The position numbers and the translations under genes are program-made. This document shows positions 2,892-45,700 of a DNA stretch of 64,000 nt, one piece after another. The stretch lies in the NCBI GenBank assembly GCA_026389845.1, contig JAPLHB010000052.1:1-64000 (forward strand). Reading direction: 5' to 3'. The notes beneath the pieces were generated by a model. The model searched no databases. It worked only from the letters and a program-made list of their open reading frames with translations, and was not told where the DNA came from. This DNA comes from Chloroflexota bacterium (GTDB lineage: Bacteria; Chloroflexota; Anaerolineae; CG2-30-64-16). Position 1 is the stretch's first letter. The number at the start of each line of letters is the position of its first letter.

Positions 2892-5800
2892 GCGGCCTCC
2901 AACTTCGCCAGCAGCGTGCTCGCCTCGTCGTACGCCACCTTGTACGTGCCGTCCGGCGGCCCATCGCACTCCGCCAGCCGCCGCGCGGCCTGCGCATGTC
3001 GCAACGCCTCCGCTCGATCTCCCCGCGCCATCTCGATCTCCGCCAGGAACAGGTGTACGTCCGCGCCCTGCAGCACATACCCGCTGCGCTCGGTGATGAC
3101 TAGCGCCTCCCCCGCCAACCGCAACGCCTCGGCACGCAACTCATCTCCCCCGCCCCCCTGCTCCCTTTCTCCCTCTCTCCCCTCGTCCCACCGCACCCGC
3201 GCCAGATCGAGCAGGATGTCCGCCTCGTGATCCACCAGGTTGATCCCCCGGCAGCGGGCCAGCGCCTCGGTCAGATGGCGGTCGGCTTCATCCGGATCGC
3301 CGGCCGCTCGCAGCGCCGCGCCCAGCAGCCAGTGGGCACGGACGTAGTCGCGTTCGGACGGGAATCGGACGCGAGCTGTCTCATCCGCCAGCTCCAGCGC
3401 GCGGCGGGCGGCTCGGACCCCCTCCCCTGCCCCTCCCCCGTTGCGACGGGGGAGGGATCGGGTGGGGGTAAGATCCCGCGCCATCAGCAGCGCGGCCAGG
3501 GCACGGTAGGCCCATGTCACGCCAACACCCTGCACTGCCTTCTTCTTCTCAAACGCCCCCAACGCCGCATCCAGCTCCCGCTTCGATTCCGCCAACGCGC
3601 CCCGATAGGCCAGCAGCTGGCCCAACGCGGCGTGCCCGACCGCCTCCCGGAACTCGTCTCCGATCTCCCGGCACAGGGCGATCTCGCGGCGCAGGTTGGC
3701 CTCGGCCGCGGCCAGCGCACCGAGAGGCATGTAGGCCACGGTGGCTACGGCCCCCAGGCCGATGGCGAGGTTCTCCTTGTCGCCGCGTTTTTCGTCAATG
3801 GCGTTGCCTCCTTCGAATAGCGGCACCGCCCGGGCCGGCTGGCCGCTGAGGCTGTAGGAGTTGGCCAGCGCGGTCAGCGTCCAGGCCTGGTCGCTCTCCT
3901 TCGTCAGCCGCGGCGGTTTGTCCTCACCGTCGGGGAAGAGACCGGCCAGGAGCTCGATGCGCAACTGGTAGGCGCCAAACTGGTAGTAGGTGGCCTGGCT
4001 GATACGGTCTCGGAACAGCGTGATCGCCTCATCATACTGCCCTGCGGCCACCGTGTGGTGGTACAGCTCGATCACGGGCGCCAGGTCGTCCAGCGTCCGC
4101 ACCTGCTCCGGCGGCGGCACCGCGGCGAAGTAGTCGCGCAGGCGGCGGTGGGCCGCGGCGCGGTCATCACCGGCCAGGCGGTCGTATGCGTAGCGCCGTA
4201 CGATGGGGTGAAGGTCGAAGCGGTTGGTCCGGTGGTCGCGGTGGAGGAGGCCGCGGGAGAGGAGGTCGTGTAAATCCGCGTCTAGGTCGTAGGGGCGGGT
4301 CTCCGGCGCATCTGTCCCGGAACGCCCGCGCTCCACGGATGCCTGTTCGTCGGCGAACGATTCGCTGCCACGTGACCCGCCCAATGTCGCATCCGCGGCG
4401 ACACGTCCATCCGCGCGTCCACCGCGACCAAACAGGCGGTTCAGGACGCCGGGGCGCGGGGGGCGGGTTTGGTTGGCCGGTTGTGCGTCGCTTGCCGTTG
4501 ATGTCACGGTCGCCGCGCCGCCGCGTTCGCCGGGCATCACAAACCCGCCCCTACGGTCGGCCAACGCGGCCAGGGCCTCGTACCCCACCGGCCCGCGGAA
4601 GCAGGCGATGCGGCTCAACAGCCGTCGGCGGTCGGGGGGCAGGCTCTCGTAGGCCTGTTCCAGGACGTGGTGCTGGCGCTGCACGAGGTAGGGGCGACCT
4701 TCGCGGTCGCCCCCGGCCACGTCCAGCCGCCGCGCGGCCGCGATGTCGCCGGGCTGGCGCAGGTCGTTGGTGACCAGGCCGGCCAGCAGGCGCAGGCTCA
4801 ACGGGTGGTAGCCGTAGGGCGCGCAGGCGGCCTCGATCTCGGCGCGGCCGCCGCGGATGCCCTGGCCGCGGAAGAACGCCACCGCATCGCCGGGATCCAT
4901 CTGCGTCAGCTCCCGCTCACAGCAGCCCAGCAGCAGCTCCTCCCCATGCCCCTCCACGATCCGCGGCCGCAGCCGGGTCGTCATCAGCACCTTGCCGCGT
5001 AGGCCGGGCAGGGTAGCCAGGGAGCGGAGGAAGTGCTCGGCGACGGGGGAGACGCAGTCGCGTTCGGATTGCGGATTGCGGATTGCGGATTGCGGATTGC
5101 GTATTTGGCTCTTTGCTGATTCGCTGATTCGCTGATTCGCCGATTCGCTGATTTGCCGATTTGCCGATTTGCCGATTTGCCGATTTGCCGATTTGCCGAT
5201 TTGCCGATTTGCCGATTTGCCGATTTGTTGATTCGTCTCATCCCCCTGGTACGCGGCCATCAGGCTGCTGAAGGCGCGGAGGGCGCGCTCGAAGCCGTCG
5301 AGGATGAGGAGGGTGCCGGGCTGGCGCAGGAGGGTGAGCAGCGCGTCGGCCTGCTGCCGCGGGCCGGGGAAGCGACGGAGGTCGGCGCCCAGGTAGGTCA
5401 GCGTCTCACGCAGGAAGCTGTCGAACTGGTTATCCCCTTCGTAGAAGCTCCACCAGACCGCGCGGGGCCAGCGGGCCGCGTCCACGTCGTGACTCAGCCA
5501 GTGCCAGGCCAGCGCGCTCTTGCCGAACCCGCCCAGCGCACGCAGCATCAGCAGCGGGTGGCCGGGATCGCGTTCCAGCCAGCCGCTCAGCATCTCCCGC
5601 TCGGCGGCACGGCCGGTGAAGTTGGGCTGCGCACCGTAGGGGTGCGGCAGGAACCAGCCGGGCCGCTCGGGCGCGGGCGGCGGTTCCTGGATGGGCGCCG
5701 CGCCGAGCGCGGTCAGGAGTTGGGTCCACGGCCAGGCCGGGTCGTCGGGGTCGGCGAAGTTGACGTAGGTGAGCGCCCGCAGGCGCGGCGGGAGATCGCA

Positions 5801-6120: not shown

Positions 6121-6250
6121 GTTCCCCGTATTGCGTACTGCGTGTTGCGTACTGCGTGTTGCGTACTGCGTGTTGCGTACTGCGTGTTGCGTACTGCGTA
6201 CTGCGTATTGCGTACAGTCACGGGATACGAAATACGTAGTACGCAGTACA
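6121..6250. repeat. Heptamer array forming the TIR-STAND gene leader
   Basis: Alternating TGCGTAC and TGCGTGT heptamers run from about 6125 to 6216 and are followed by inverted-sense units (TACGTAGTACGCAGTAC) to 6250. Together they occupy most of the 5' leader of the minus-strand TIR-STAND gene. A related GCGAATGGCGAGTA / GAAGGAC array lies at about 6311-6353. Confidence 0.9.
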
Positions 6251-9688: not shown

Positions 9689-9838
9689 ACGTGCTGCGTG
9701 ATACGTGCTGCGTGCTGCGTGCTGCGTGCTGCGTGCTGCGTGCTGCGTGATACGTGATACGTGCTGCGTGCTACGTGATACGTGCTACGTGGAAGTCCAC
9801 AACTACCTGGCACCGATCACGTAGCACTCGTCACGTAT
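9689..9838. repeat. ACGTGCTGCGT heptamer array with inverted right arm
   Basis: About 100 bp of GCTGCGT and ATACGTG units is followed by a short inverted arm (CACGTAGCACTCGTCACGTATCACG, split by a non-repeat loop). It fills the whole gap between the glycosyltransferase and the LPG-synthase-like gene, so any co-transcript carries a long hairpin here. Confidence 0.9.
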
Positions 9839-12182: not shown

Positions 12183-12275
12183 CGGTATTAGGTATTGGAT
12201 ATTGGATATTGGCAAGTGGGGTCTTTTCCATCTGCCAATACCCAATATCTAATACCCAATATCCAATATCCCTTA
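12183..12275. repeat. ATTGGAT heptamer hairpin between dnaN and recF
   Basis: A left arm of ATTAGGT/ATTGGAT units (12184-12211) is followed by a 25-nt loop and a right arm of ACCCAAT/ATCCAAT units (12236-12272). The arms pair with few mismatches. The array extends to within 5 bp of the recF start codon and replaces any normal ribosome site. Confidence 0.93.
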
Positions 12276-13966: not shown

Positions 13967-15730
13967 CTAAAACGTCTTCTGGAACACCAGGTTGAACGAG
14001 TTGTGGAAGAGTGTATTGCCGCCTCCGCCCTCGCTGCAAGCGGCCTCGTCGGTGAAGTTCGAGTGCACCGGCTGGGCAATGTCGCTGCTGGCGGGATTGA
14101 CGCCATCCTGCGAGACGTACACGCCATATTCCGCGCCCTTCCACAAGACGAATTCGGCCAGCCCGGGCCCCTTCGTGCCCGAGACCGTTTTGTCCAACAC
14201 GTTGCCAGGTTGACCGGCCGGCGTCTGTACCAGGATCACGCCATCCACCGGGTTGCCGGCCGCGTCTACGATCTTGATGAAGACGTTGTGCTTGCCGCGA
14301 TTCTCGCACGGCGTCATCCGTCGCATCTCGACCAGCTTGAACTGGACTGAGGGCTTTGCGGGCGCGGCAGCCGCGGCGGCGACCACGGGCGCTTCCTGCA
14401 CCACAATCGGCGCCGGGACCGGCGTCGGTGGGATCGGTGTCGCGGTCGGCGGGATCGGCGTGGCCGTGGGTGTGAAGGTCGGCGTCGGCGTCGGCGTATT
14501 CGTGGGCGTCGGCGTCGGCGTGAAGGTCGGCGTCGGGATGGGGGTCTCGGTCGGCCAGGGCGTGTAAACGGGGGTGGCCTGCACGGGCAGGTCGGCTGCC
14601 ATCGCCACCTTCACCACGCGATCGCGGACCCCGGCGCGGGCGACCGAGCTGGTGGCCTGTGAGGCGACGCTGTTGGCAGAAAGCAGCGAGAGGATCGCCG
14701 ACGGTGCAACGACCCCCAGCAGCCAGATCAACAGGATGATGACCGCGACCAGGCGCAGCTTGGCGCCCGTGCTGCGCGCCCCGAACCAACTGGTGGCGGT
14801 GTTGGCCGCGTGGCCCATGCCCATCACCGCGCCGGTTACATCGGTCGTCCGCCTGACTTGCGCCTCCGAGGGCATGGTGTAGGCAGTAGGCGCCGGCGCG
14901 GGGGCCATGACGACGCTGGTCACAGCACGCTCGGTATTCTCACGCAGGCGTTGGCTCAACAGACGGCTCAAGTTCAACGCCAGGCTGGGATAGCGGAGGA
15001 CGAGGGTCTCGAAATCGGTCCGGCCCAGTGACCACGCAACGACATCTGTCTGCGCCACCACGTAGGTGCCGTGCGCCTCGCCGGTGAGCAGCGACGTCTC
15101 CCCGAAAAATTCGCCCGGCCCCAAGGTCCCCAGGGTCTGGATGGCCCCATTGGCCATGCGGGCCTCCACACTGACCTGGCCCGACTCGATCAGGTGGAGC
15201 GCCTCTCCCGGCTCGCCGCGGCGATAGATCGCCCGGCCGGCCGCGAACTGCTCCGGGCGCAGGTGGCTGGCGACCTCGCCGACCTGCTCGCGCGTCAGCC
15301 CGTTCATCAGGGTTAGTCGGCGCAGATGCCGTTCGGTGAATTGGTCGTCGGTGACGCCCGCCGCCGATTTCAGCAATCGGCCCATCTGTGGGTCCTGCGC
15401 CACCAGCCCGGCCAGGTCGAGCGCGCTGAACGCGAATAGCTCGACGTTAGTCGCCGCCTCGGCCGAGAGGGTGTAGTTGCGGCCCACCAGCACATCGGCT
15501 TCGCCCAACACGCTACCCGGCCCCAGGGTTGCCAGCACCGCGTACTGGTCGTTGATCAACCGCACCCGGCCCGAATTGACCAGATACATGGCCGCGGCGG
15601 TCTGGCCCTCGGCAAAGACCGTGTCGCCGGCGCGCCGGGTCTCCGATGTCATCCGGCACGCGATCAAGTCGCGCTGACCGTCGGTCAGCTCCGCAAACAG
15701 CGGGGCGTTAGCGATCATGTCTTCTTTCAC
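13967..15730 (-). CDS. Membrane protein: twin cNMP-binding-like domains inside, stalked domain outside
   Basis: The 587-residue protein starts with two Crp-like cNMP-binding folds (residues about 8-125 and 130-255; LGPGSVLGEADVL and LGPGEFFGETSLL are the phosphate-cassette positions). The Arg that binds cyclic phosphate appears replaced by Tyr in the first and His in the second, so ligand binding is doubtful or altered. A single membrane helix (about 325-345) leads to a Thr/Pro stalk (about 385-445) and a roughly 120-residue outer domain (DAAGNPVDGV, GTKGPGLAEFVL, DGVNPASSD, ending VFQKTF) shared with the next gene upstream. No signal peptide is seen, so the N-terminus should be cytosolic. 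The GTG start at 15730 has AGGGGAG in front. A signal-out sensor or a regulated surface protein are possible; function unknown. Confidence 0.8.
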   Translation of the reverse strand: MKEDMIANAPLFAELTDGQRDLIACRMTSETRRAGDTVFAEGQTAAAMYLVNSGRVRLINDQYAVLATLGPGSVLGEADVLVGRNYTLSAEAATNVELFAFSALDLAGLVAQDPQMGRLLKSAAGVTDDQFTERHLRRLTLMNGLTREQVGEVASHLRPEQFAAGRAIYRRGEPGEALHLIESGQVSVEARMANGAIQTLGTLGPGEFFGETSLLTGEAHGTYVVAQTDVVAWSLGRTDFETLVLRYPSLALNLSRLLSQRLRENTERAVTSVVMAPAPAPTAYTMPSEAQVRRTTDVTGAVMGMGHAANTATSWFGARSTGAKLRLVAVIILLIWLLGVVAPSAILSLLSANSVASQATSSVARAGVRDRVVKVAMAADLPVQATPVYTPWPTETPIPTPTFTPTPTPTNTPTPTPTFTPTATPIPPTATPIPPTPVPAPIVVQEAPVVAAAAAAPAKPSVQFKLVEMRRMTPCENRGKHNVFIKIVDAAGNPVDGVILVQTPAGQPGNVLDKTVSGTKGPGLAEFVLWKGAEYGVYVSQDGVNPASSDIAQPVHSNFTDEAACSEGGGGNTLFHNSFNLVFQKTF

Positions 15731-15749
15731 AACGATTCTCCCCTCACAA

Positions 15750-15800
15750 GCAGCAAATCAGCGAATCAGCGAATCAGCGAATTGGCGAATCAACGAATCA
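15750..15800. repeat. GAATCAGC octamer array
   Basis: Units of GCGAATCA fill the gap between two minus-strand genes. The stop codon of the upstream SH3 protein (15798-15800) lies inside the last unit. Confidence 0.85.
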
Positions 15801-17147
15801 GTAGGCTCGTTGAAAAACGACGTCCCACGAGTAGTGCCCGTGGCAACCGTTTTGCCTCACGAAATGAGCGCAATCCTCGGCGTTCTTGCAGAATCCGCTC
15901 CCCATCAGAATTTCTGTGGGGATCGCCGCTGGGTCGGTACTCATGCCGCGGGCATAGTCGCTGCTGGGCTGATGACCGTCCACATCGCGCACGATGAAAG
16001 CGTCTTGACCACCGCCGAGAATGAATTCTGCCACCCCCGACCCTTTGCTGCCGGTCACATCTTCTTCCTGATTGCCGTAGGCAACTTTGACGGTGACGCC
16101 GTTAAGCGGATTGCCCGCAGCATCCTTTACCAACACCCGCAACTGGCGTTTCTCGCCGCAGTGCACCGATGAGCCGTCGAGAAAGCCGCCATTTTCTTCT
16201 ACGCCCCAAAGTCGCTTGCTCACGAATCGGAACTCTGGTCCGGCCGGCTTGGGCGTCGCCGTGGGCGGCGCGGGGGTGAAGGTGGCCGGCGGAGCCGGAA
16301 TATCCTTGGCGACCGGGACCGCGTCAATCGGCCCCTGCACCTTGACTACGGTGCCGGCGACCCACGCCTGGCCGGCGCCTTCCACGGCTACCTGCCACCA
16401 ATCGCTGCCCGCGGTGCGGCCGATGATGTTTACTTCCTGCCCGGTTTGCAGTTCACCCACCAGTGGGTAGTTCACGCCGGGGCCGCCGCGTAGATTGGCC
16501 GCGCTCGGAGCTACGACGTGCGGCCGCGGCGTCGGCGAGGGTGAGGCGGTCGGCGCGATGGTCGGCGGGATGGCGGTCGGCGTGGCGGTGGGTGGCAAAG
16601 GTGTCGCGGTCGGCGGCGTTGTGGGACTGGGCGGCGCCGGAGTCGGCGACGGCGGGACGGCAGTGGCAGTCGGCGCCAGGTAGGCGATCAGCCGGGAGCT
16701 GTGTGCGCCCAGGGCTTCAGCCAGGCGGGCCAGCGGGATGATCTCCGCGGACGGCCGGCCTTCGTTGACGCTTTGCTCGGCTAGAGTGACCAGCAGTTGC
16801 GTGGGATTCGCCAGCCCCAGTTTGTCCAGGCTGGCTTGTGCCGTGGCAAGATCGGCATCGCGTGCGTAATCGGCCGCGATGCGCTGCAGGCTGGCATCGC
16901 GTTCGGCCTGCGACAGCGATGTGCGTTTATCGGTCTGCGCGCAACTCGTCAACATCAGGCTGACGAGCAGCAGGATGCTGAACGCAAGGAACAGCAAACC
17001 AGGCCAACGGCCCTGGCTCGTGCGGCGGACTCGCCGGTCTATTCTGAGCATACGATCATCATGGGGCAAAAAATGAGGGGCGTTGTCATCTTGCGTGAGC
17101 GAGTCTGTGCGCTCCGTAAGCGATCCTGCCCCGGTGGTCTCATTCAT
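15798..17147 (-). CDS. Membrane-anchored SH3b protein with the shared exported C-terminal domain
   Basis: The 449-residue protein has a 47-residue charged N-terminus, one hydrophobic helix (LLFLAFSILLLVSLMLTSC), a helical region, a Pro/Thr stalk (about 160-205), a bacterial SH3 domain (ANLRGGPGVNYPLVGELQTGQ... WWQVAVEG, about 212-270), another stalk, and a final 130-residue domain. That last domain matches the one in the following cNMP-like protein (DAAGNPLNGV, TGSKGSGVAEF, DGHQPSSD, ending VFQRAY). SH3b domains often bind cell-wall peptides. The Cys after LMLTS could be a lipidation site if a later start such as ATG 17051 is used; the start at 17147 is provisional. It is co-directional with the cNMP-like gene and separated only by an octamer array. 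Confidence 0.78.
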   Translation of the reverse strand: MNETTGAGSLTERTDSLTQDDNAPHFLPHDDRMLRIDRRVRRTSQGRWPGLLFLAFSILLLVSLMLTSCAQTDKRTSLSQAERDASLQRIAADYARDADLATAQASLDKLGLANPTQLLVTLAEQSVNEGRPSAEIIPLARLAEALGAHSSRLIAYLAPTATAVPPSPTPAPPSPTTPPTATPLPPTATPTAIPPTIAPTASPSPTPRPHVVAPSAANLRGGPGVNYPLVGELQTGQEVNIIGRTAGSDWWQVAVEGAGQAWVAGTVVKVQGPIDAVPVAKDIPAPPATFTPAPPTATPKPAGPEFRFVSKRLWGVEENGGFLDGSSVHCGEKRQLRVLVKDAAGNPLNGVTVKVAYGNQEEDVTGSKGSGVAEFILGGGQDAFIVRDVDGHQPSSDYARGMSTDPAAIPTEILMGSGFCKNAEDCAHFVRQNGCHGHYSWDVVFQRAY

Positions 17148-17233
17148 TTGGATTCACCCATGCGCTGCATCCGTTCTTTGGGATAGAATAGGATCACTGC
17201 TATAATGCCGCCGCATGAGTTTAGCATAGTGAG

Positions 17234-17316
17234 TGCCGAAGGTGGGAATCGAACCCACATGGGGCAACCCCCAACGGTGTTTGAGACCGTCGCGTCTACC
17301 TTTCCGCCACTTCGGC
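17234..17316 (-). tRNA. tRNA-Leu (CAA)
   Basis: On the minus strand the 83-nt sequence folds with acceptor GCCGAAG/CTTCGGC, anticodon stem ACGGT/ACCGT around CTCAAAC giving anticodon CAA, a long variable arm, and T arm GTGGGTTCGATTCCCAC. It reads UUG leucine codons. The discriminator is A, and CCA is not encoded. Confidence 0.95.
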
Positions 17317-17329
17317 ACGTACAGAGGCA

Positions 17330-17358
17330 AGTATACCCGAAGAGGAACAGATCGTCAA
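17330..17358 (-). promoter_or_regulatory. Promoter of tRNA-Leu
   Basis: TTGACG (17353-17358) and TATACT (17330-17335) on the minus strand are exactly 17 bp apart and end 14 bp before the tRNA 5' end. Confidence 0.85.
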
Positions 17359-17408
17359 GTTCGTTTAGGCACAGAGACTCGTGCCCCTGAATAGGCGATT
17401 AACGAGCC

Positions 17409-18146
17409 ATGTTGCTGCTACGCTTCCTATCCCCGGCCGCGCCGGCCCCGATTCAGCAGGCGCTTCGCCTGTTGGGCCTATCGTCGCGAATGCCGGTTCT
17501 CTTCGCCTCCTGGGACGGCTGGGGCGACCGCGCCACGCGTCCTACGCCGCCGCGCCGGCCGGAATACGACGAGCAGACGCTCATCGCAGCCGCCCGCCGT
17601 GGCGATCTGCCGGCCTTCAACCAGATCATCCTCCACTACCAGGGCCTGGCCTACAACGTGGCCTATCGCATCCTCGGTGACGGCGACTCGGCCTCCGACG
17701 CAACCCAGGATGGCTTCATCAAGGCGTTCCAGCGGCTCAATCAATATCGCGGCGGGTCGTTCAAGGCGTGGATGTTGCGCATCGTCACCAACACCTGCTA
17801 CGACACCCTGCGCGCCCACAAGCGCCGGCCCACGACTTCGCTGGAAAAAGAGGATGAAGACCCCGAGCACGACAGCAAGCTGCAAGACCCGGCCGAGCGG
17901 CCCGACGCCTATGCGCTGCGCCACGAGTTGGCGGTCGCGATCCAGGCGGCCATCGTTAAACTGCCGCCGGATCAGCGCGCCACGCTCGTACTTTCCGACA
18001 TCGAGGGGCTGGATTACCAGGAGATCGCCGCGGCCACCGGCGCGGCGCTGGGCACGGTGAAATCGCGCCTCAGCCGCGCCCGCGCCAAGCTGCGCGACCT
18101 GCTGCTGGCCCAGGGGGAACTATTGCCCGCGCGGTATCGTCTGTGA
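17409..18146 (+). CDS. ECF-type RNA polymerase sigma factor
   Basis: The protein (up to 245 residues) directs RNA polymerase to a stress or envelope regulon. Region 2 is seen in FNQIILHYQGLAYNVAYRILGD and ASDATQDGFIKAFQRLNQYRGGSFKAWMLRI (split here by family convention), and region 4 in LPPDQRATLVLSDIEGLDYQEIAAATGAALGTVKSRLSRARAKLR. An acidic linker (KEDEDPEHD) separates them. Conserved sequence begins around residue 50, so the ATG at 17490 is as likely a start as 17409. The cognate anti-sigma gene follows after a perfect hairpin, and the pair should form one transcript. Confidence 0.9.
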   Translation: MLLLRFLSPAAPAPIQQALRLLGLSSRMPVLFASWDGWGDRATRPTPPRRPEYDEQTLIAAARRGDLPAFNQIILHYQGLAYNVAYRILGDGDSASDATQDGFIKAFQRLNQYRGGSFKAWMLRIVTNTCYDTLRAHKRRPTTSLEKEDEDPEHDSKLQDPAERPDAYALRHELAVAIQAAIVKLPPDQRATLVLSDIEGLDYQEIAAATGAALGTVKSRLSRARAKLRDLLLAQGELLPARYRL

Positions 18147-18148
18147 CG

Positions 18149-18226
18149 TGATTGGAGATTGGGTATTGGGTATTAGGTATTGGAGATCGGCCTCCCAATC
18201 TCCAATACCTAATACCCAATACCTGG
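18149..18226. repeat. ATTGGGT heptamer hairpin between sigma and anti-sigma genes
   Basis: 18162-18187 and 18198-18223 are exact reverse complements over 26 bp, with a 10-nt loop. The arms are made of ATTGGGT, ATTAGGT and ATTGGAG units. It lies immediately downstream of the sigma-factor stop and 13 bp before the anti-sigma start. Confidence 0.96.
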
Positions 18227-18236
18227 AAACACGACC

Positions 18237-20198
18237 ATGAGATTCTCGATAACCAACCCGCAACGTGCGCACGTGAGCGCCGACCTGCTCTCGGCCTACC
18301 TGGACAACCAGGCGACGGCCGCAGAGCGGGCGCGGGTTGACGCGCACCTGGCGACCTGCGCCGCCTGCCGGACCGAGCTGGACAGCCTGCGGCAGACGGT
18401 GGCGCTGGTGCGCGCTCTGCCCCGCGTGGCTGTCCCGCGCGCCTTCACCCTGTCGGAGGCGCGGGTCGGCATCCGCCGGCCGGCGACGCAGCCGGGGTGG
18501 TTCGGCGGCGCGCTGCGCGGGCTGGTCGCGGCGACCGCGGTCGCCTTGGTGGTCGTGGTCGCAGGGACGCTGCTGCGCCAGATCGGGAGCAGACCGACCG
18601 GCCAGCTCGCCCTGGCGCCCGCGGCCACGGCCGCCCCGGCCGCGCTTTCCTCCGAGGCCGGACCGGCCGCCGCACCCAAGCCGATGATGGCCGCCCCGCC
18701 CCAGCCCACTGCCGCTCCGACGGTCGCGGTCGAGAAGGTCGTAGAGATGCCATCCCAGGCGCCCGCGCCAGCCGCCGTCAAGCCGCAGGCGCTCGCGCCG
18801 CGGCCCACGCCGGCGCCTGCGATCATCCCAACGCCGACGACTGCCCCCGCAGCCAAGGCTGCGGCGCCGGTCGCGCCGATCCCTGGGAAGCCCACGACGG
18901 CCGCCGCGGCCCCGACGGCGACCGCGGCGGTCATGGCGGCGGCCGCCGCGGCCACCACTGCGCCCGCGCGTGCCATGCCGGCCGCCGATCTTGGCGCCCG
19001 CGAAGGCGGCGGAGCGAATCAGGCTGCTCTCACCCCGGAGGCGGCACCCGCGCCCGCGGCCATCACCGCCACCCTGCCGGCTGGTGCGGGTGTCGCTTAC
19101 GCGGATCTTAAGGGGCTATGGACGCTCGACCGCGAGACCGGCGCCCGGCAGATCGTGAGCGGCGAGGGGATCAGCAGCCCAGCCATTTCGTTGGATCGGG
19201 CGTGGATCGCCTACCGCGTGCTCCGGGGCGACCATTTCGAGCTGTGGGCCGTGCGTTGGGACGGCAAGGACGCGCGCCTGCTGCTCGCCGAGCGCGATCT
19301 GCCGAAGGATGACCTGGCCGCGGGCTACAGCGAGCGGCGCTTCGGCGACGTGCGTTGGATCCCCGGCGCAGCAACCCTGGCGCTCAACGTGACCGTCATC
19401 CCGACTGCCGGCGATGTGCCGCCCACGTTCGAGCTTTGGATGGTGGACGCCCGGACCGGCGCGCGGCGCCTGGCGGTCAAGATGGACGCCGCCGCCCGGC
19501 CCATCTTCTCGCCCGACGGCCAACGCTTCGCCTTGCTTCAGCCCGCCACCGAAAAGACTCGCGAGGGCAGCCTGGCGATCTACAACGCCGACGGCACGGC
19601 CGGCCGCGTTCTGCTTAAGTTCGCTCGCGGCCTCGCCCCGCGCTTCTACGAAACGCAGGCGAGCTGGCTGCCCGACGGCAAGACCCTCCTGGCCGCGGTC
19701 ACCGACCCGGCCGACTCGCCGGAGCAGCTCAACGGCATCACGCTTTACCGCATCGGCGCGGACGGGCAGGCCAAGTCTGCCGGACACGTGGATGCGTTCG
19801 ACTCCTTCTGGTCACCCGATGGGACGCGACTGGCGTACACGCGGGCGGTGAATAACTCGGTGGACACGCGCGAGTTGTGGATCGCCAATGCCGACGGGAC
19901 GAATCCTCGACAGTACGCGATGTTGCGCAACGGCGTCTTCGTCAACTGGTCGCCCGACAACGTCCACTTCATCTATGCGGATGCTAATCAGGTCTACCTG
20001 GGCGGGATCAGCCAGGCCCCGCGCTGCATGGGCAACGCGGCCAGCGTGTTCGATCCGCGCTGGATCGGGCCGGGCCAATTCGTACACCTCCACGACCAGA
20101 ACACCGGTTGGATGCTGGTCTCGCGTACGGTGAACGATCAAGCTGCCAGCCTGCTACTGCTGCCCCGCGAAGCCACCTACGACGTGACGCGACCGTAG
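18237..20198 (+). CDS. Transmembrane anti-sigma factor with outer beta-propeller
   Basis: This 653-residue protein has an N-terminal zinc-finger anti-sigma domain: HVSADLLSAYLDNQAT, then HLATCAACRTEL, the H-x3-C-x2-C of ZAS/zf-HC2 proteins. A membrane helix (GLVAATAVALVVVVAGTLL, about 98-117) is followed by a roughly 160-residue Ala/Pro/Thr linker. The C-terminal 350 residues have repeats like WSPDGTRLAY, FSPDGQRFALL and WSPDNVHFIY, the TolB/PD40 propeller signature, predicted to be outside. Signals sensed by the propeller would release the sigma factor encoded just upstream. The two genes are separated by a 26-bp perfect hairpin that could lower anti-sigma output relative to sigma. Confidence 0.88.
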   Translation: MRFSITNPQRAHVSADLLSAYLDNQATAAERARVDAHLATCAACRTELDSLRQTVALVRALPRVAVPRAFTLSEARVGIRRPATQPGWFGGALRGLVAATAVALVVVVAGTLLRQIGSRPTGQLALAPAATAAPAALSSEAGPAAAPKPMMAAPPQPTAAPTVAVEKVVEMPSQAPAPAAVKPQALAPRPTPAPAIIPTPTTAPAAKAAAPVAPIPGKPTTAAAAPTATAAVMAAAAAATTAPARAMPAADLGAREGGGANQAALTPEAAPAPAAITATLPAGAGVAYADLKGLWTLDRETGARQIVSGEGISSPAISLDRAWIAYRVLRGDHFELWAVRWDGKDARLLLAERDLPKDDLAAGYSERRFGDVRWIPGAATLALNVTVIPTAGDVPPTFELWMVDARTGARRLAVKMDAAARPIFSPDGQRFALLQPATEKTREGSLAIYNADGTAGRVLLKFARGLAPRFYETQASWLPDGKTLLAAVTDPADSPEQLNGITLYRIGADGQAKSAGHVDAFDSFWSPDGTRLAYTRAVNNSVDTRELWIANADGTNPRQYAMLRNGVFVNWSPDNVHFIYADANQVYLGGISQAPRCMGNAASVFDPRWIGPGQFVHLHDQNTGWMLVSRTVNDQAASLLLLPREATYDVTRP

Positions 20199-20222
20199 AA
20201 CTACTCTTGAGCTTCGATGACT

Positions 20223-20354
20223 GTCACTCTGAGCGGGTTAGCGATGGACAGTACATCACAGCGTGACACCAGCGAAGAGTCTCGATGTCACGCGGGATGC
20301 TTCGCTGGAATCTCGCCGTACCGCAAGAGACGGGGCCGACCCGCTCAGCATGAC
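20223..20354. repeat. 132-bp palindromic element (copy 2)
   Basis: The ends GTCACTCTGAGCGGGTT and GACCCGCTCAGCATGAC and the inner CCAGCGAAG / CTTCGCTGG pair match copy 1 at 7924-8055, with the same total length. It lies between the anti-sigma gene and mutM. Confidence 0.93.
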
Positions 20355-20408
20355 GCGCACGAGAGTTTCTCGCTCTGGGAATGCCTCTGCGCGGCGTAAA
20401 GGATGCCA

Positions 20409-21239
20409 ATGCCTGAACTCCCCGAAGTCGAAACCATCGCGACCGATCTGCGCCCCTTGCTGATCGGCCGGCGCTTCACCGACGCCCACGTCGCATGGCC
20501 CCGCACGTTGGCCGAGCCTGATCCCGTCGCCCTTGCCGAACGGATGCGCGACCGACAGGTGATTGACGTGGGCCGCCGCGGCAAATACCTGTTGATTCCC
20601 CTGGACTCCGGCGAGACGCTGATTATCCATCTGCGCATGACCGGCCACCTGGCGGTCGTACCAGCCGGCAGCCCCGCGCTGGCCGATACGCATCTGCGGG
20701 CCTGGTTCGACCTGGCGGGTGACGAGCACCTGGTCTTCACCGATGCGCGCAAGTTCGGCCGCGTCTGGCTGGTGGATGATGTGGCGCGGGTGGTGGGCAA
20801 GCTGGGACCGGAGCCGTTGGATTGGACCTTCACGGCCGAAGTGCTGGCCGGGCGCTTGCACGGCCGTCGCGTCGCGATCAAGGCCGCGCTGCTCGATCAG
20901 ACCGTGGTAGCCGGCGTGGGCAACATCTACGCCGACGAAGCGCTCTTCCGGGCCAGCATCCACCCCCTGCGCCGGGCCGCCAGCCTGACCGCCGGCGAAA
21001 TCGAGCGGCTGCGCGACGCCATCCGCCAGGTGATGCGTGAGTCCATTGACCAGCGTGGCACCCTGCTGCGGGATTATCGCACCCCCTACGGCGCGGATGG
21101 CGCCTTTCAGGCGCGGCTGCGCGTCTACCAGCAAACCGGCCGGCCCTGCCCCCGCTGCGGCGCGGCCATCGAGCGCATCCGCGTGACCCAACGCAGCACG
21201 CACTTCTGCCCCCAATGTCAGCTCGCGAAGGTTCTCTGA
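20409..21239 (+). CDS. mutM: Formamidopyrimidine-DNA glycosylase
   Basis: MutM/Fpg removes oxidised purines such as 8-oxoguanine and nicks the abasic site. The 276-residue protein must begin MPELPEVET, because Pro2 is the catalytic nucleophile and Glu3 the acid; this fixes the start at 20409 and not the ATG two codons earlier. Other landmarks are the RRGKYLL segment with the conserved Lys, the DARKFGRVWL strand, the NIYADEALF helix and the C-terminal zinc finger CPRCGAAI...HFCPQCQ. AAGGA precedes the start. The stop overlaps the next gene as TGATG, so the two are translationally coupled. Confidence 0.96.
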   Translation: MPELPEVETIATDLRPLLIGRRFTDAHVAWPRTLAEPDPVALAERMRDRQVIDVGRRGKYLLIPLDSGETLIIHLRMTGHLAVVPAGSPALADTHLRAWFDLAGDEHLVFTDARKFGRVWLVDDVARVVGKLGPEPLDWTFTAEVLAGRLHGRRVAIKAALLDQTVVAGVGNIYADEALFRASIHPLRRAASLTAGEIERLRDAIRQVMRESIDQRGTLLRDYRTPYGADGAFQARLRVYQQTGRPCPRCGAAIERIRVTQRSTHFCPQCQLAKVL

Positions 21240-22624
21240 TGACGCAAACTCTCATCATCCTCCACACCAACGACATTCACGGCAACGTCGAGGGTCTGGC
21301 GCGGATCGCGACGCTGGTCGCACAGGTCAAGGCTGAGGACCCTGATACCCCCGTATTCTACTTCGACTGCGGCGACGTCGAGGAGCCTTCCAGCCGTTTG
21401 AGCAACGTCACCAAGGGAACGGCCATGCACCGGCTGCTCAACGCGGCCGGCTGTGATGCGGCCGTGGCCGGCAACGGCGCCTGGCTGCGCTACGGGCCGC
21501 AGGTGTTGGCCGAACACGGCGCCGCGGCGCGCTATCCGTTGCTGGCGGCAAACCTGCGCACCCATGCCGGCGATCCGCTGGCGGGCGTGCAACCGGCTGT
21601 GCTCCTCCAGGCCGGCTCATTGCGCCTGGGCGTGATCGGCGTCACTACCGACATGCCGGAATACACCGCCTTCTTCAACCTGCAAGCGGTTCCCACGGCG
21701 CCCCTGGTACGGGAGCTGGCCGCGGCGCTCCGGCAGGACGGCGCGGACGCGGTGGTCGTCCTCTCGCATCTGGGCCTGGCCGCCGATCGCGAGCTGGCTG
21801 CCGATCTTCAAGAGGACGTGGTCGCCATCCTCGGCGGGCATAGTCACGACCTGCTGCCTGAAGGCGAGCGAATCGGCCGCGTGTTCGTGGCGCAGGCGGG
21901 GCAATACGCGGGGCACGTGGGCCGGCTCGACCTGGCCTGGGACGACGAACAGGCGATGGTGACGGCCGCGGCTGCGCTGCCCGTCCCCGAAACGATGCCA
22001 CCCTCGGCAACGGTGCTGGCCGAGGCGCAGGCCATCGAAGCCGCAGGGGTGCAATTCCTGGCCGAGATCATCGGCGAGCTGGCGGAGTCGTTGGACTTCG
22101 CCACCGACCGAGAGTGCGCCGCCGGGAACCTGATGGCCGACGTCCTGCAGGAGCGGATGGGGGGCCAGGTCGCGGTGACGACGGGAGGGCACGCGTTCAT
22201 CGGGCCGCTGCCCGGCGGGCCGGTGTCCCGCGGCGCGCTGTGGGAGGTTTGCACGTCCACGGCCAACCCGGCCGTCGTGACGATGACGGGCGCGCAACTG
22301 GCTGCGCTCGTGGCGAAGGGGTTGGATCTGACGTTTGCGGCCGAGCGGCCCCACACACTGCGCGGTAACGCGCGCGGCCTGATCCACCTGAGCGGCGCGA
22401 CCGTGCGCGGGGGGCAACTGCTGGTCGGCGGTGAGCCGGTCGAGCCGGGCCGCGAATACCTGGTAGCGGGCAGCGATTGGGAGTTCGAGTCCTATGGCGG
22501 CTACGTGGAGCGCGCCTGGGATCTGCGCCCGCGCTACGAAGTGCCGACGATCCTGCGCGAAGCCCTGGAGGAATACCTGGCGACGCACCGGCCGGTCAGG
22601 GTGCAGATGGGGCGGCTGGGATAG
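21239..22624 (+). CDS. 5'-nucleotidase/UshA-like metallophosphatase, cytosolic
   Basis: The 461-residue protein has the two-domain layout of the 5'-nucleotidase family: an N-terminal metallophosphatase (HTNDIHGN, FDCGDVEE, LSHLG, GGHSHD) and a C-terminal nucleotidase-like domain (NLMADVLQERMGGQVAVTTGG, EVCTSTANPAVVTMTG, WEFESYGGYV). Two active-site features are unusual. The GNHE motif reads GNGAW, losing the catalytic His, and GDxxD reads GDVEE. The protein has no signal peptide although the family is mostly exported. The ATG at 21239 shares a base with the mutM stop. It may act on damaged nucleotides alongside MutM (inference from coupling only) or be a non-catalytic relative. Confidence 0.82.
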   Translation: MTQTLIILHTNDIHGNVEGLARIATLVAQVKAEDPDTPVFYFDCGDVEEPSSRLSNVTKGTAMHRLLNAAGCDAAVAGNGAWLRYGPQVLAEHGAAARYPLLAANLRTHAGDPLAGVQPAVLLQAGSLRLGVIGVTTDMPEYTAFFNLQAVPTAPLVRELAAALRQDGADAVVVLSHLGLAADRELAADLQEDVVAILGGHSHDLLPEGERIGRVFVAQAGQYAGHVGRLDLAWDDEQAMVTAAAALPVPETMPPSATVLAEAQAIEAAGVQFLAEIIGELAESLDFATDRECAAGNLMADVLQERMGGQVAVTTGGHAFIGPLPGGPVSRGALWEVCTSTANPAVVTMTGAQLAALVAKGLDLTFAAERPHTLRGNARGLIHLSGATVRGGQLLVGGEPVEPGREYLVAGSDWEFESYGGYVERAWDLRPRYEVPTILREALEEYLATHRPVRVQMGRLG

Positions 22625-22740
22625 CTGATTTGAGCGCAAAAAGCCCCTGGTCCAGCGCGCCTCACCTGCACACTTTGGACCTGGGTCGAGCCTTCCCTCG
22701 CCAGGCGCCCGGCCGTTGCATGCGCCGGTCGCTTCTCCCA

Positions 22741-22938
22741 TCAGGTACAGACCGACCCGGCCGACGTGCTGAGCGGCCCCAGGAACCCGGCGAGAGGCGA
22801 CGGGTCGGCGCCGCCGGGCAGCAGGCCCTGCGCCTTCGCTTCCAGCAACCGCTCCAGGACGATGCGCGGCTCGTCCTACGCCTGGCGGTTGACCTCTGTC
22901 TTCACTCCGGTGCGATCGGGAGCAACCTTGGCGTCCAT
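22741..22938 (-). pseudogene. Small broken gene remnant with an internal TAG
   Basis: In the 22625-22973 gap the minus strand has AGGAGG, then an ATG at 22938, 20 codons, a TAG at 22876-22878, and 44 more codons in the same frame (DEPRIVLERLLEAKAQGLL...) to a TGA at 22741-22743. The translated pieces look protein-like but I do not recognise them. It could be a decayed 65-codon gene, a sequence error or chance. The rest of the gap shows nothing clear. Confidence 0.35.
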
Positions 22939-22973
22939 GATACCTCCTGTTCAACCTTAACCTCAGCCTGAAC

Positions 22974-25900
22974 TCACCACCCCACCCACGGCAGCCACAG
23001 CCGCGGCGCCGCGGCGGTCGGACGCACCGTCACGCTCGTCAGGCCGAGCGCCTGAATGCCTCCGGCCAGGTCCACCGCTTCCAATCGGTACCAGTAGGTT
23101 CGGCCTCCTTGCACATCGCGATCGCTAAACGCGTAGGTGTGCCCGTTTGCGGAGCCGGGGGCCGCGCTGGGGATCAGCCCCGCGTCCAGCCGCTGCCACG
23201 GCCCCGCGGCGCTTTCCGCCCGGTACAGGTGGAAGCCCTGCACGTCCAGCTCGCTGACCGTCTCCCACGTCACCACCACTTGGTGGCCGGCGACCGTGGC
23301 CTGGAAGTTCGCCAGCCGCACCGCCAGCGGCCCCTTGCTGCTATCCCCCACCGCCCAGTCCGAGAGGGTCGTCAATTCGGTGCGCGTGACCGTGTTGGCC
23401 GTGGCCGAGGTACGGCCGCACATCCAATTCGTGCCGCCGGTGTTGCGGCAGACGTAGGCGTTGGTGCCAGGGGTGGAGACGTTGTGCGGCAACGTCAGGT
23501 CAATGGTATAGCTGCTGCCGGTGGGTGTAATGCTCCAGTAGCGACCGGTCTGGGTGGCAGCGACGGCATTGGGATGGTTGCTGTCCACCCGATCCACCTG
23601 GAGCTGGCTCAGGCTGCCCTGCGTCGTCACGTTGACGCTCAGGTCGGCGCCATTGTAGCGCCCGGCCAGGCCGAAGGTCTTGCTCCCAGCGCCGGAGACG
23701 CTCTGTGTCTTGCGGATCGTGCCGCTGTTGGTCAGCGTGCCGGCCACGGTGACGTTATCCGCCGAGACGGTTTCCACCAACGTCACGCCGCTGTTGACGG
23801 TCAGGTTGTTGAAGGTGGTAGCAACGCTGGCGTCCAGGTTTTGCGCGCCGCTGCCGCTGAAGATCACCGTGCCAGAGTTGTGATTGAGCGTCCCGCCGCT
23901 GTTCGTGAGATTGCCCGTGAGCGAGAAGGTGTTCGCGCTCGGCGCGTTGAACGTTCCTGCGGAGAGGGTCAGGTTGCCGCTGAGCGTCGTCGCGCCGAGC
24001 AAGGTCAGGTTGACGCCCGAATCGAGTGAGACACTTTCGTTGTAGGTGCCAGCATGCACGTCCACACTCCCATTGACCATCACCGCATTGAGCGCGCCGC
24101 CGATGGTGGTATAGCAGGGGAGATTGCTGCCGCATGCTCCTCACTTTAGCCACGAACGCGTCTCGAATGCCGCCGTTGTGGGTGAGGTCGGGTCCGATGG
24201 TCACGGGGAAGGTCGCCTCGGTCGAGGCGGTGAAGCCCGTGACGTAGGCGTTGCCTGCTGAGTCCACCGCAATGCCCCTGCCATAGTCGTCGCCGCTGCC
24301 GCCGATGTAGCCCGCATAAACCAACGCGCTACCGCTGGCGTTCACCTTCGCCACGAATGCGTCCCCGATGCCGTTGTAGGTGACGTCGGGTCCCACCGCC
24401 ACAGGGAAGGTCGCTTCGGTCGACCAGGTGTTGCCCGTGACGTAGGCGTTGCCCGCCGTGTCCACTGCTATCCCATAGCTATTGTCGTAGTCGCTGCCGC
24501 CGATGTAGCCCGCATAAACCAACGCGCTACCGCTGGCATTCACCTTCGCCACGAATGCGTCCCAGCCGCCGTTGTGGGTGAGGTCGGGTCCCACCGTCTC
24601 AGGGAAGGTCGCTTCGGTCGAGGAGGTGTAGCCTGTGACGTAGGCGTTGCCCGCCGCGTCCACCGCAATGCCGATGCCATAGTCGGTGTCGCTGCCGCCG
24701 ATGTAGCCCGCATAAACCAACTCGGTACCACTGGCATTCACCTTCGCCGCGAATGCGTCCCCGCCGCCGTTGTAGATGAGGTCGGGTCCCATCGTCTCAG
24801 GGAAGGTCGCTTCGGTCGAGTAGGTGTCGCCCATGACGTAGGCGTTGCCCGCCGTGTCCACCGCGATGCCGTAGCCATTCTCGCCGCCGCTGCCGCCGAT
24901 GTAGCCCGCATACACCAACGCCGTGCCACTGGCATCCACCTTCGCCACGAATGCATCACTGCTGCCGTTGTGGGTGAGGTCGGGTCCGATGGTCACGGGG
25001 AAGGTCGCCTCGGTCGAGTAGGTGTTGCCCGTGACGTAGGCGTTGCCTGCTGAGTCCACCGCAATGCCGTAGCCCGATTCATAGTTGTTGCCGCCGATGT
25101 AGCCCGCATACACCAACGCCGTGCCACTGGCATTCACCTTCGCCACGAACGCGCACCTTCGCCACGAACGCGTCCCACGGGCCGCCGTTGTAGGTGAGGT
25201 CGGGTCCGACGGTCACTGGGAAGGTCGCCTGGGTCGAGTTGGTATCGCCCGTGACGTAGGCGTTGCCCGCCGAGTCCACCGCAATGCCGAAGCCACGGTC
25301 GTCAGCGCTGCCGCCGATGTAGCCCGCATAAACCAACGCGCTACCGCTGGCGTTCACCTTCGCCACGAATGCGTCTTCGCCGTCGTTGTGGGTGACGTCG
25401 GGTCCCACCGTCTCAGGGAAGGTCGCCTCGGTCGAGGCGGTGTCGCCCGTGACGTAGGCGTTGCCCGCCGCGTCCACCGCAATGCCGTAGCCATAGTCGT
25501 CGCCGCCGCCGCCGATGTAGCCACAGTAGACCAGCACGGTCGGGTCAATCACCAGCGGCAGTGCGGGGTTGTATGCGCCCACGTGGAATCCGTAGGGGCG
25601 CGGCTCGTCTGTGCCCACCTCGTCCGCGCCCCACCGCGCGGCATCCTCCAGCGCATAAGCCACTGCCACTGGCACACGCTGCCCCGCCACCTCTTGATAC
25701 GCCACAGGCGCGTCGTCCTGGAAGCCGCCCGCAGGCGTACTCACTTCCAACTGCCCCGCGTCGTTCACCCGCACCGTCGCGCCGCGATAGGCAAGGCGAA
25801 TGGCGGCGGGGTCAGCGCCGGGCTTGACCACGAATTCGTACTTCAAGCGATTGACCGTCCCGCTGTACACCAGGTCAATCCCCTCCCACAAATCGGGGTA

Positions 25901-33821: not shown

Positions 33822-33883
33822 GGCACGGTCGGAGACCGGCCAAAGCTGTGAATATGCTGCTGGGGCCGGTCTCCGACCGTGCC
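33822..33883. repeat. 20-bp perfect inverted repeat upstream of moxR
   Basis: 33822-33841 and 33864-33883 are exact reverse complements built on GGCACGGTCGGAGACCGGCC, with a 22-nt loop. Half copies occur at about 56738-56757 and within pcrA at 37957-37982 and 38002-38027. Confidence 0.92.
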
Positions 33884-45579: not shown

Positions 45580-45700
45580 GGAGAAAAACGAAAAACGTAA
45601 AACGAAAGGATGTCGCGCGGCGCCCTTTCGTTTTACGTTTTGCCTTTGCGTCTTGCGTTTTTCGCCTTGCGTTTTTCGCCTTGCGTTTTGCGCTTTCCGC
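45580..45700. repeat. AAAACG-type repeat hairpin upstream of the DksA-like gene
   Basis: GAAAAACGTAAAACGAAAGG on the left pairs with CCCTTTCGTTTTACGTTTTGC on the right (paired arms split by GATGTCGCGCGGCG), and the right arm continues as TTGCGTTTTTCGCC units to about 45695. It fills the gap between the divergent ruvB and DksA-like genes. Confidence 0.88.

Follow-up and report, generated by a model that had tools for sequence, protein, structure and literature searches.

A promoter that lies within a sigma factor gene and serves only the anti-sigma gene has been reported in Corynebacterium glutamicum, where the SigH-dependent promoter PrshA, located inside sigH, transcribes the anti-sigma gene alone and sigH itself is made from other promoters (PMC3489674). 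An intragenic ECF-type promoter is likewise reported for Caulobacter sigV, in this case inside cabp (PMC13171946). In Thermoanaerobacter tengcongensis, the gene for the ECF sigma factor Tt-RpoE1 is followed by that of a TolB-type membrane anti-sigma factor, Tt-TolB, and the -10 element reads CGTC (PMC3397946). With regard to repeated DNA, arrays of the heptamers GGGAATC and GGGGA(C/T)T in Xanthomonas and Nostoc were described as often forming inverted pairs that converge (70 and 75 cases), the upstream ORF being 28 nt away and the downstream one 160 nt away (PMC4692102). The nearest report of repeats within the clade considered here concerns the GATAGRA satellites of Chloroflexus aurantiacus (PMC6749651). 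Beyond the papers cited, searches of open-licence PMC papers yielded neither heptamer arrays nor internal anti-sigma promoters in this clade.

The locus under study lies in a window of 64,000 nucleotides (the whole stretch of Chloroflexota DNA that was analyzed) and comprises two genes on the forward strand. The upstream gene (17409..18146) encodes an ECF sigma factor, as indicated by the ORF list, the coding score, its orthologues and the presence in its product of Sigma70_r2 and Sigma70_r4_2 domains (Pfam PF04542 and PF08281); its start codon is uncertain, 17409 corresponding to the longest ORF and 17490 being favored by the coding score. The downstream gene (18237..20198) encodes a membrane anti-sigma factor of the zf-HC2/PD40 type, with an N-terminal zf-HC2 domain, one hydrophobic segment (residues 95-113) and C-terminal PD40 repeats. 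The sigma stop codon (18144-18146) is separated from the anti-sigma ATG at 18237 by a gap of 90 nt, and the best named relatives of the sigma factor, on which the assignment to the phylum is based, were found in Chloroflexi/Anaerolineae MAGs. The window shares with Tt-RpoE1/Tt-TolB an ECF sigma gene followed by a TolB-type membrane anti-sigma gene as well as a CGTC -10 element; the T. tengcongensis system differs in having an autoregulated promoter upstream of sigma, a -35 element reading tGTTAC and a gap of 2 bp.

The original prediction for this locus was that a hairpin in the gap could set the sigma:anti-sigma ratio. The conserved candidate for control turned out instead to be an element which that prediction did not name, namely a promoter sequence in the 3′ end of the sigma gene. 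It consists of a -35 element, GGAAC (18116..18120, forward strand; codons GGG GAA CTA TTG of the sigma coding sequence), and a -10 element, CGTC (18138..18141, forward strand; codons CGT CTG), separated by 17 nt, the final sigma codons (18116-18141) reading GGAACTATTGCCCGCGCGGTATCGTC, which corresponds to the ECF-type motif GGAAC-N17-CGTC. This motif was present in all 33 loci of a first set (three of them second records of genomes already counted) and at 46 of 50 sigma 3′ ends chosen by homology, or 48 of 50 when the -10 element was counted as CGT. With spacers of 10 to 25 nt allowed, the 17-nt spacing recurred in 46 cases, the only others being one at N24 and one at N25, against a chance background of 0.0014 per 240-nt window. 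The two loci of the 50 that are devoid of it, L164 and L176, showed no anti-sigma-like ORF adjoining the sigma gene. Only one of 20 paralogous ECF control loci (L196) displayed a match, located after the stop codon. Among named sigma homologues, the motif occurred at four of 29 loci, three of which are Chloroflexota/Anaerolineae records; the match in the fourth (L014) was taken as chance. A search of 301 genomes of the phylum with a pattern built from DNA only returned 17 matches in 17 genomes, compared to two for the reversed control, and 16 of the 17 fell where a homologous sigma gene (42-58% identity) ends, the last one (L202) being without a sigma match. This pattern is strict and gave no match in the genome of the window either, so that absence of a match is uninformative.

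The elements coincide with the codons of a C-terminal peptide, ELLPxxYRL, which is conserved in most sigma orthologues and could in itself account for the recurrence of GGAAC and CGTC with no promoter being involved. The synonymous sites, however, appear fixed against codon preference: with shared ancestry ignored in the counts, GAA was used in 30 of 30 cases compared to 35% elsewhere in genes, CGT in 30 of 30 compared to 10%, and CTT in 25 of 30 compared to 4%. Silent sites of the last sigma codons were conserved at 15 of 15 positions in G005 and 11 of 11 in G008, and the motif conforms to the ECF consensus in both sequence and spacing. Moreover, at L163 and L165, two loci of one family that count as one event, ELLPxxYRL has been lost while GGAAC-N17-CGTC is kept, with the sigma stop codon falling within the spacer; the exact spacer speaks against out-of-phase chance matches at these loci. 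The paralogue at L196 (in G003) shows the opposite, in that ELLP is retained with GAG as the Glu codon and the motif is missing from the gene; its GGAAC-N17-CGTC lies 17 nt beyond the stop codon of sigma, in the interval that precedes a different gene. Altogether, the silent-site bias, L196 and L163/L165 favor a DNA site over a peptide, and we regard the motif as very improbably a mere by-product of protein sequence. This suggests that the constraint of a regulatory DNA site can hold a peptide motif constant throughout a phylum.

A score matrix derived from 30 of the sites assigned 25-34 bits to the embedded elements and at most 8.3 to any position within about 450 nt upstream of each of the 30 sigma genes, the shuffled maximum being 7.1. 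No comparable site was thus present in this upstream interval at any of the 30 loci, and an autoregulatory promoter upstream of sigma was rejected on these scores. High embedded scores together with upstream scores close to those of shuffled DNA suggest that the sigma factor drives its inhibitor and not itself. The strong motif was found once in the genome of the window, and a site-score search of 419 kb of G000 disclosed a single further strong site, which lies within a gene; a wider regulon sharing the same strong site is thus not visible in the genome of the window. The predicted layout is that of PrshA, an ECF-type promoter in the sigma coding region serving the anti-sigma gene only. It differs in that PrshA was established experimentally in one species, whereas the present element was found by computation, reads GGAAC-N17-CGTC and is held in codons across many genomes of the phylum. 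Such fixation of a promoter in the sigma factor's own codons is new as far as the literature searched is concerned. Searches for target promoters confined to the region upstream of sigma operons would miss embedded sites of this type.

Placing CGTC at positions -13 to -10, where it lies in the case of Tt-RpoE1 (PMC3397946), we infer from its position a transcription start for the anti-sigma gene at 18151 (plus or minus 2 nt, forward strand), five bases past the sigma stop codon and on the first base of the first heptamer of the repeat array described below. The resulting leader would be of equal length, 86 nt, in G000 and G005. Predicted leaders at other loci, for which start codons were assigned only crudely, span -3 to 240 nt, and the values of -3 or -1 obtained at four of them would require either errors in the start codons or leaderless messages. 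By a crude test, HxxxCxxC was detected in only 39 of 60 downstream ORFs.

The predicted leader is occupied by the hairpin that had first drawn attention to this gap. Its arms, a G-rich left arm (18162..18187) and a C-rich right arm (18198..18223), are indeed exact reverse complements over 26 bp on the forward strand, flanking a 10-nt loop (18188..18197) whose center is identical in the orthologous leader of G005; with one mismatch allowed, they lengthen to 29 nt each (18162-18190 and 18195-18223). Their composition in heptamers, also noted originally, was confirmed, the units being of the type AT[T/C][A/G]G[A/G/C][T/G/A]. The outer left units (18151..18163, forward strand; inverted repeat I11) could adopt another register by pairing with 18194-18206. 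RNA folding of 18130-18250 gave -57.6 kcal/mol compared to -31.2 ± 3.5 in dinucleotide shuffles (z = -7.5), none of 200 shuffles reaching this value. Six hairpins of the 64-kb window exceeded the threshold, this one ranking highest, compared to none in three mononucleotide shuffles of the same DNA; a second heptamer hairpin of the same repeat family lies between tandem genes at 12187..12267 (forward strand). An Rfam scan of the hairpin returned no family at gathering score, and its identity as a known Rfam RNA was dropped, the only matches being sub-threshold ones to miRNA hairpins.

Whether such a structure regulates the anti-sigma gene was assessed in its relatives. A close sigma orthologue was present in eight genomes of the family, of which only G000 and G005 carried this element in the gap, and the G005 leader folded at -28.3 kcal/mol; the comparison of the gap in relatives thus revealed largely no conservation of pairing. 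The proposal that pairing has been retained to fix the sigma:anti-sigma ratio is therefore not supported, the hairpin being present in two of eight orthologues, weaker in G005 and made of repeats dispersed genome-wide, and the hairpin as a conserved part of the sigma/anti-sigma module was rejected. What stands of the original claim is that the hairpin, situated in the predicted 5′ leader of the anti-sigma gene, could alter translation or stability. A leader regulator under selection, lowering anti-sigma translation or stabilizing the messenger, would be consistent with several observations: the hairpin would fill the leader, opening of the region from -20 to +15 would cost 16.7 kcal/mol in G000 compared to 5.8 in G005, the non-array part of the gap is identical in G000 and G005 when the sigma third positions are 68% identical, and G008 (z = -4.8) and, to a weak degree, G003 (z = -1.7) have structured leaders of an unrelated kind. 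Yet the hairpin is missing from six of the eight family orthologues, its pairing in G005 is much weaker, the same repeats are found at many unrelated genes, and the region from -13 to +15 opens about as readily as that of the five relatives folded (5.6 kcal/mol compared to 4.4-8.5), which makes selection of the hairpin for this role unlikely. The hairpin ends 13 nt before the ATG, and the folding models make mild translational damping or protection of the 5′ end possible and do not predict strong occlusion of the anti-sigma start; G007 is apparently leaderless. A role of the hairpin in terminating transcription or in RNase processing, which a strong stem between co-oriented genes and the location of members of the repeat family close behind stop codons might evoke, is a very improbable reading, as the intergenic members are mostly found between tandem genes and only one of 25 between convergent ones, and the stem is not followed by a T-run. 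On this last ground an intrinsic terminator was ruled out, and a terminator scan of 17000-18400 found none at the hairpin.

The stem is built of ATTRGRK heptamers that recur throughout the genome of the window (6.84 Mb), in which triple units with one mismatch allowed were matched 126 times in forward and 136 times in reverse orientation, compared to five and two times for the reversed control pattern; BLAST with the 80-bp hairpin element gave 94 matches, and intergenic autocorrelation in sampled DNA peaked at lags of 7, 14, 21 and 28 nt. Among ten genomes of the family, exact triples were abundant in G000, G005 and G009, numbered six in G004 and were absent from six; they also occur in some other families of the class. 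Opposite-strand neighbors within 80 bp were convergent (G-rich then C-rich) in 39 of 40 cases, the sole exception involving a different unit, and the G-rich arm is therefore read first on both strands. Once the 14 of 39 convergent pairs lying inside predicted genes had been excluded from the gene-distance count, 21 of 22 pairs between tandem genes were closer to the upstream stop than to the downstream start. Dispersed, intergenic, inverted and present in many copies, the arrays call to mind mobile palindromic elements such as REPs or MITEs, dispersed through the action of a transposase; this, however, is quite improbable considering that copies vary in the number and order of units, have no fixed ends or length, and change by whole units at orthologous sites. 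The closest described kind is that of the Xanthomonas and Nostoc arrays, which are likewise heterogeneous, G-rich, 7 nt in period, scattered between genes, convergent and nearer the upstream ORF. The present family differs in its unit, ATTRGRK (the ATTGGGG form being the Nostoc GGGGATT in another register), in its phylum, in that one pair forms a perfect 26-bp stem, and in that more than one genus offers orthologous arrays for comparison.

The explanation that we consider probable is thus that of a heptamer-born hairpin acting as the leader of an anti-sigma messenger made from an ECF promoter embedded in the sigma gene. Convergent heptamer arrays dispersed in the genome would have arisen in the sigma/anti-sigma gap within a single lineage of a Chloroflexota family of the Anaerolineae type, just downstream of GGAAC-N17-CGTC in the last sigma codons. 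Polymerase loaded with sigma would start near 18151 and produce an anti-sigma messenger with an 86-nt leader consisting almost entirely of the hairpin. Free sigma would thereby raise the amount of its own inhibitor while not being made from such a promoter itself, providing a built-in brake, and the hairpin would not be the conserved control element but a structure of the 5′ leader peculiar to this lineage, with a possible part in stabilizing the messenger or in slightly reducing its translation. The broader proposition has, in our estimation, an even chance of being right: that in much of Chloroflexota one ECF sigma lineage carries its inhibitor's promoter inside its own coding sequence, that ELLPxxYRL is largely due to the DNA GGAACTTTT...TATCGTC, that the sigma factor transcribes the anti-sigma gene from this site and, as far as is visible, hardly anything else, and that a repeat-born hairpin tunes the brake in the lineage of the window. 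Taken by itself, the hairpin is nothing unusual for a genome rich in repeats; of greater importance is the embedded promoter, predicting as it does the target promoter, start site and wiring of an uncharacterized pair in uncultured Chloroflexota.

With two aligned lineages bearing the hairpin, the maintenance of perfect inverted repeats can be examined in a natural setting. In the alignment of the G000 and G005 gaps, the ends and loop are identical and the arrays differ by whole units, the left arm of G005 being one unit shorter and its right arm one unit longer, and one unit is changed in both arms (TATTAGG/CCTAATA against TATCAGG/CCTGATA). Turnover of units was also seen at three other orthologous array loci of G000 and G005; between L123 and L080 the unit type differs in both arms (GGT/GGG in G005, GAG in G000). 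Arms matched each other better than swapped pairs in G000, where six of 5000 permutations reached the observed value; arm matching as a general rule was contradicted by G005 (4685 of 5000) and G009 (4990 of 5000), whose arrays are uniform and long. Template switching, described as a source of hairpins and of their repair (PMC8794818 and PMC8604942), would explain both the perfect arms and the paired changes, and arm-to-arm correction by template switching at the inverted repeat would be the simplest account of perfect arms of mixed units, plausible at this locus. The present case differs from that model in concerning bacterial heptamer arrays and in a mixed outcome of the arm test.

Other repeats were observed alongside this family. 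Heptamer hairpins apparently lying within genes (L120/L146 and L123/L080) have kept orthologous positions while their units turned over. The window contains further arrays of period 7 or 8 and unrelated sequence (6127-6215, 9690-9791, 5112-5227 and 45583-45693, among others), and the habit is therefore one of period rather than of unit. An octamer array with units of the GCGAATCA type, situated where a reading frame begins (15749-15802), draws many of the 150 G005 matches of window positions 15000-24000, and a tandem repeat of about 198 nt extends over nearly seven copies at 24141-25522. In G009, positions 5344-5544 of L139 hold a 100-bp perfect palindrome near a contig end, possibly an assembly artefact. 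Finally, a separate family of near-perfect palindromes of 27-29 bp (GCTGTGGCCGGTCTCCTGACCGAGCCAC) is common in G005, as at L117 and L116, and has a relative in the window at 33822-33883.
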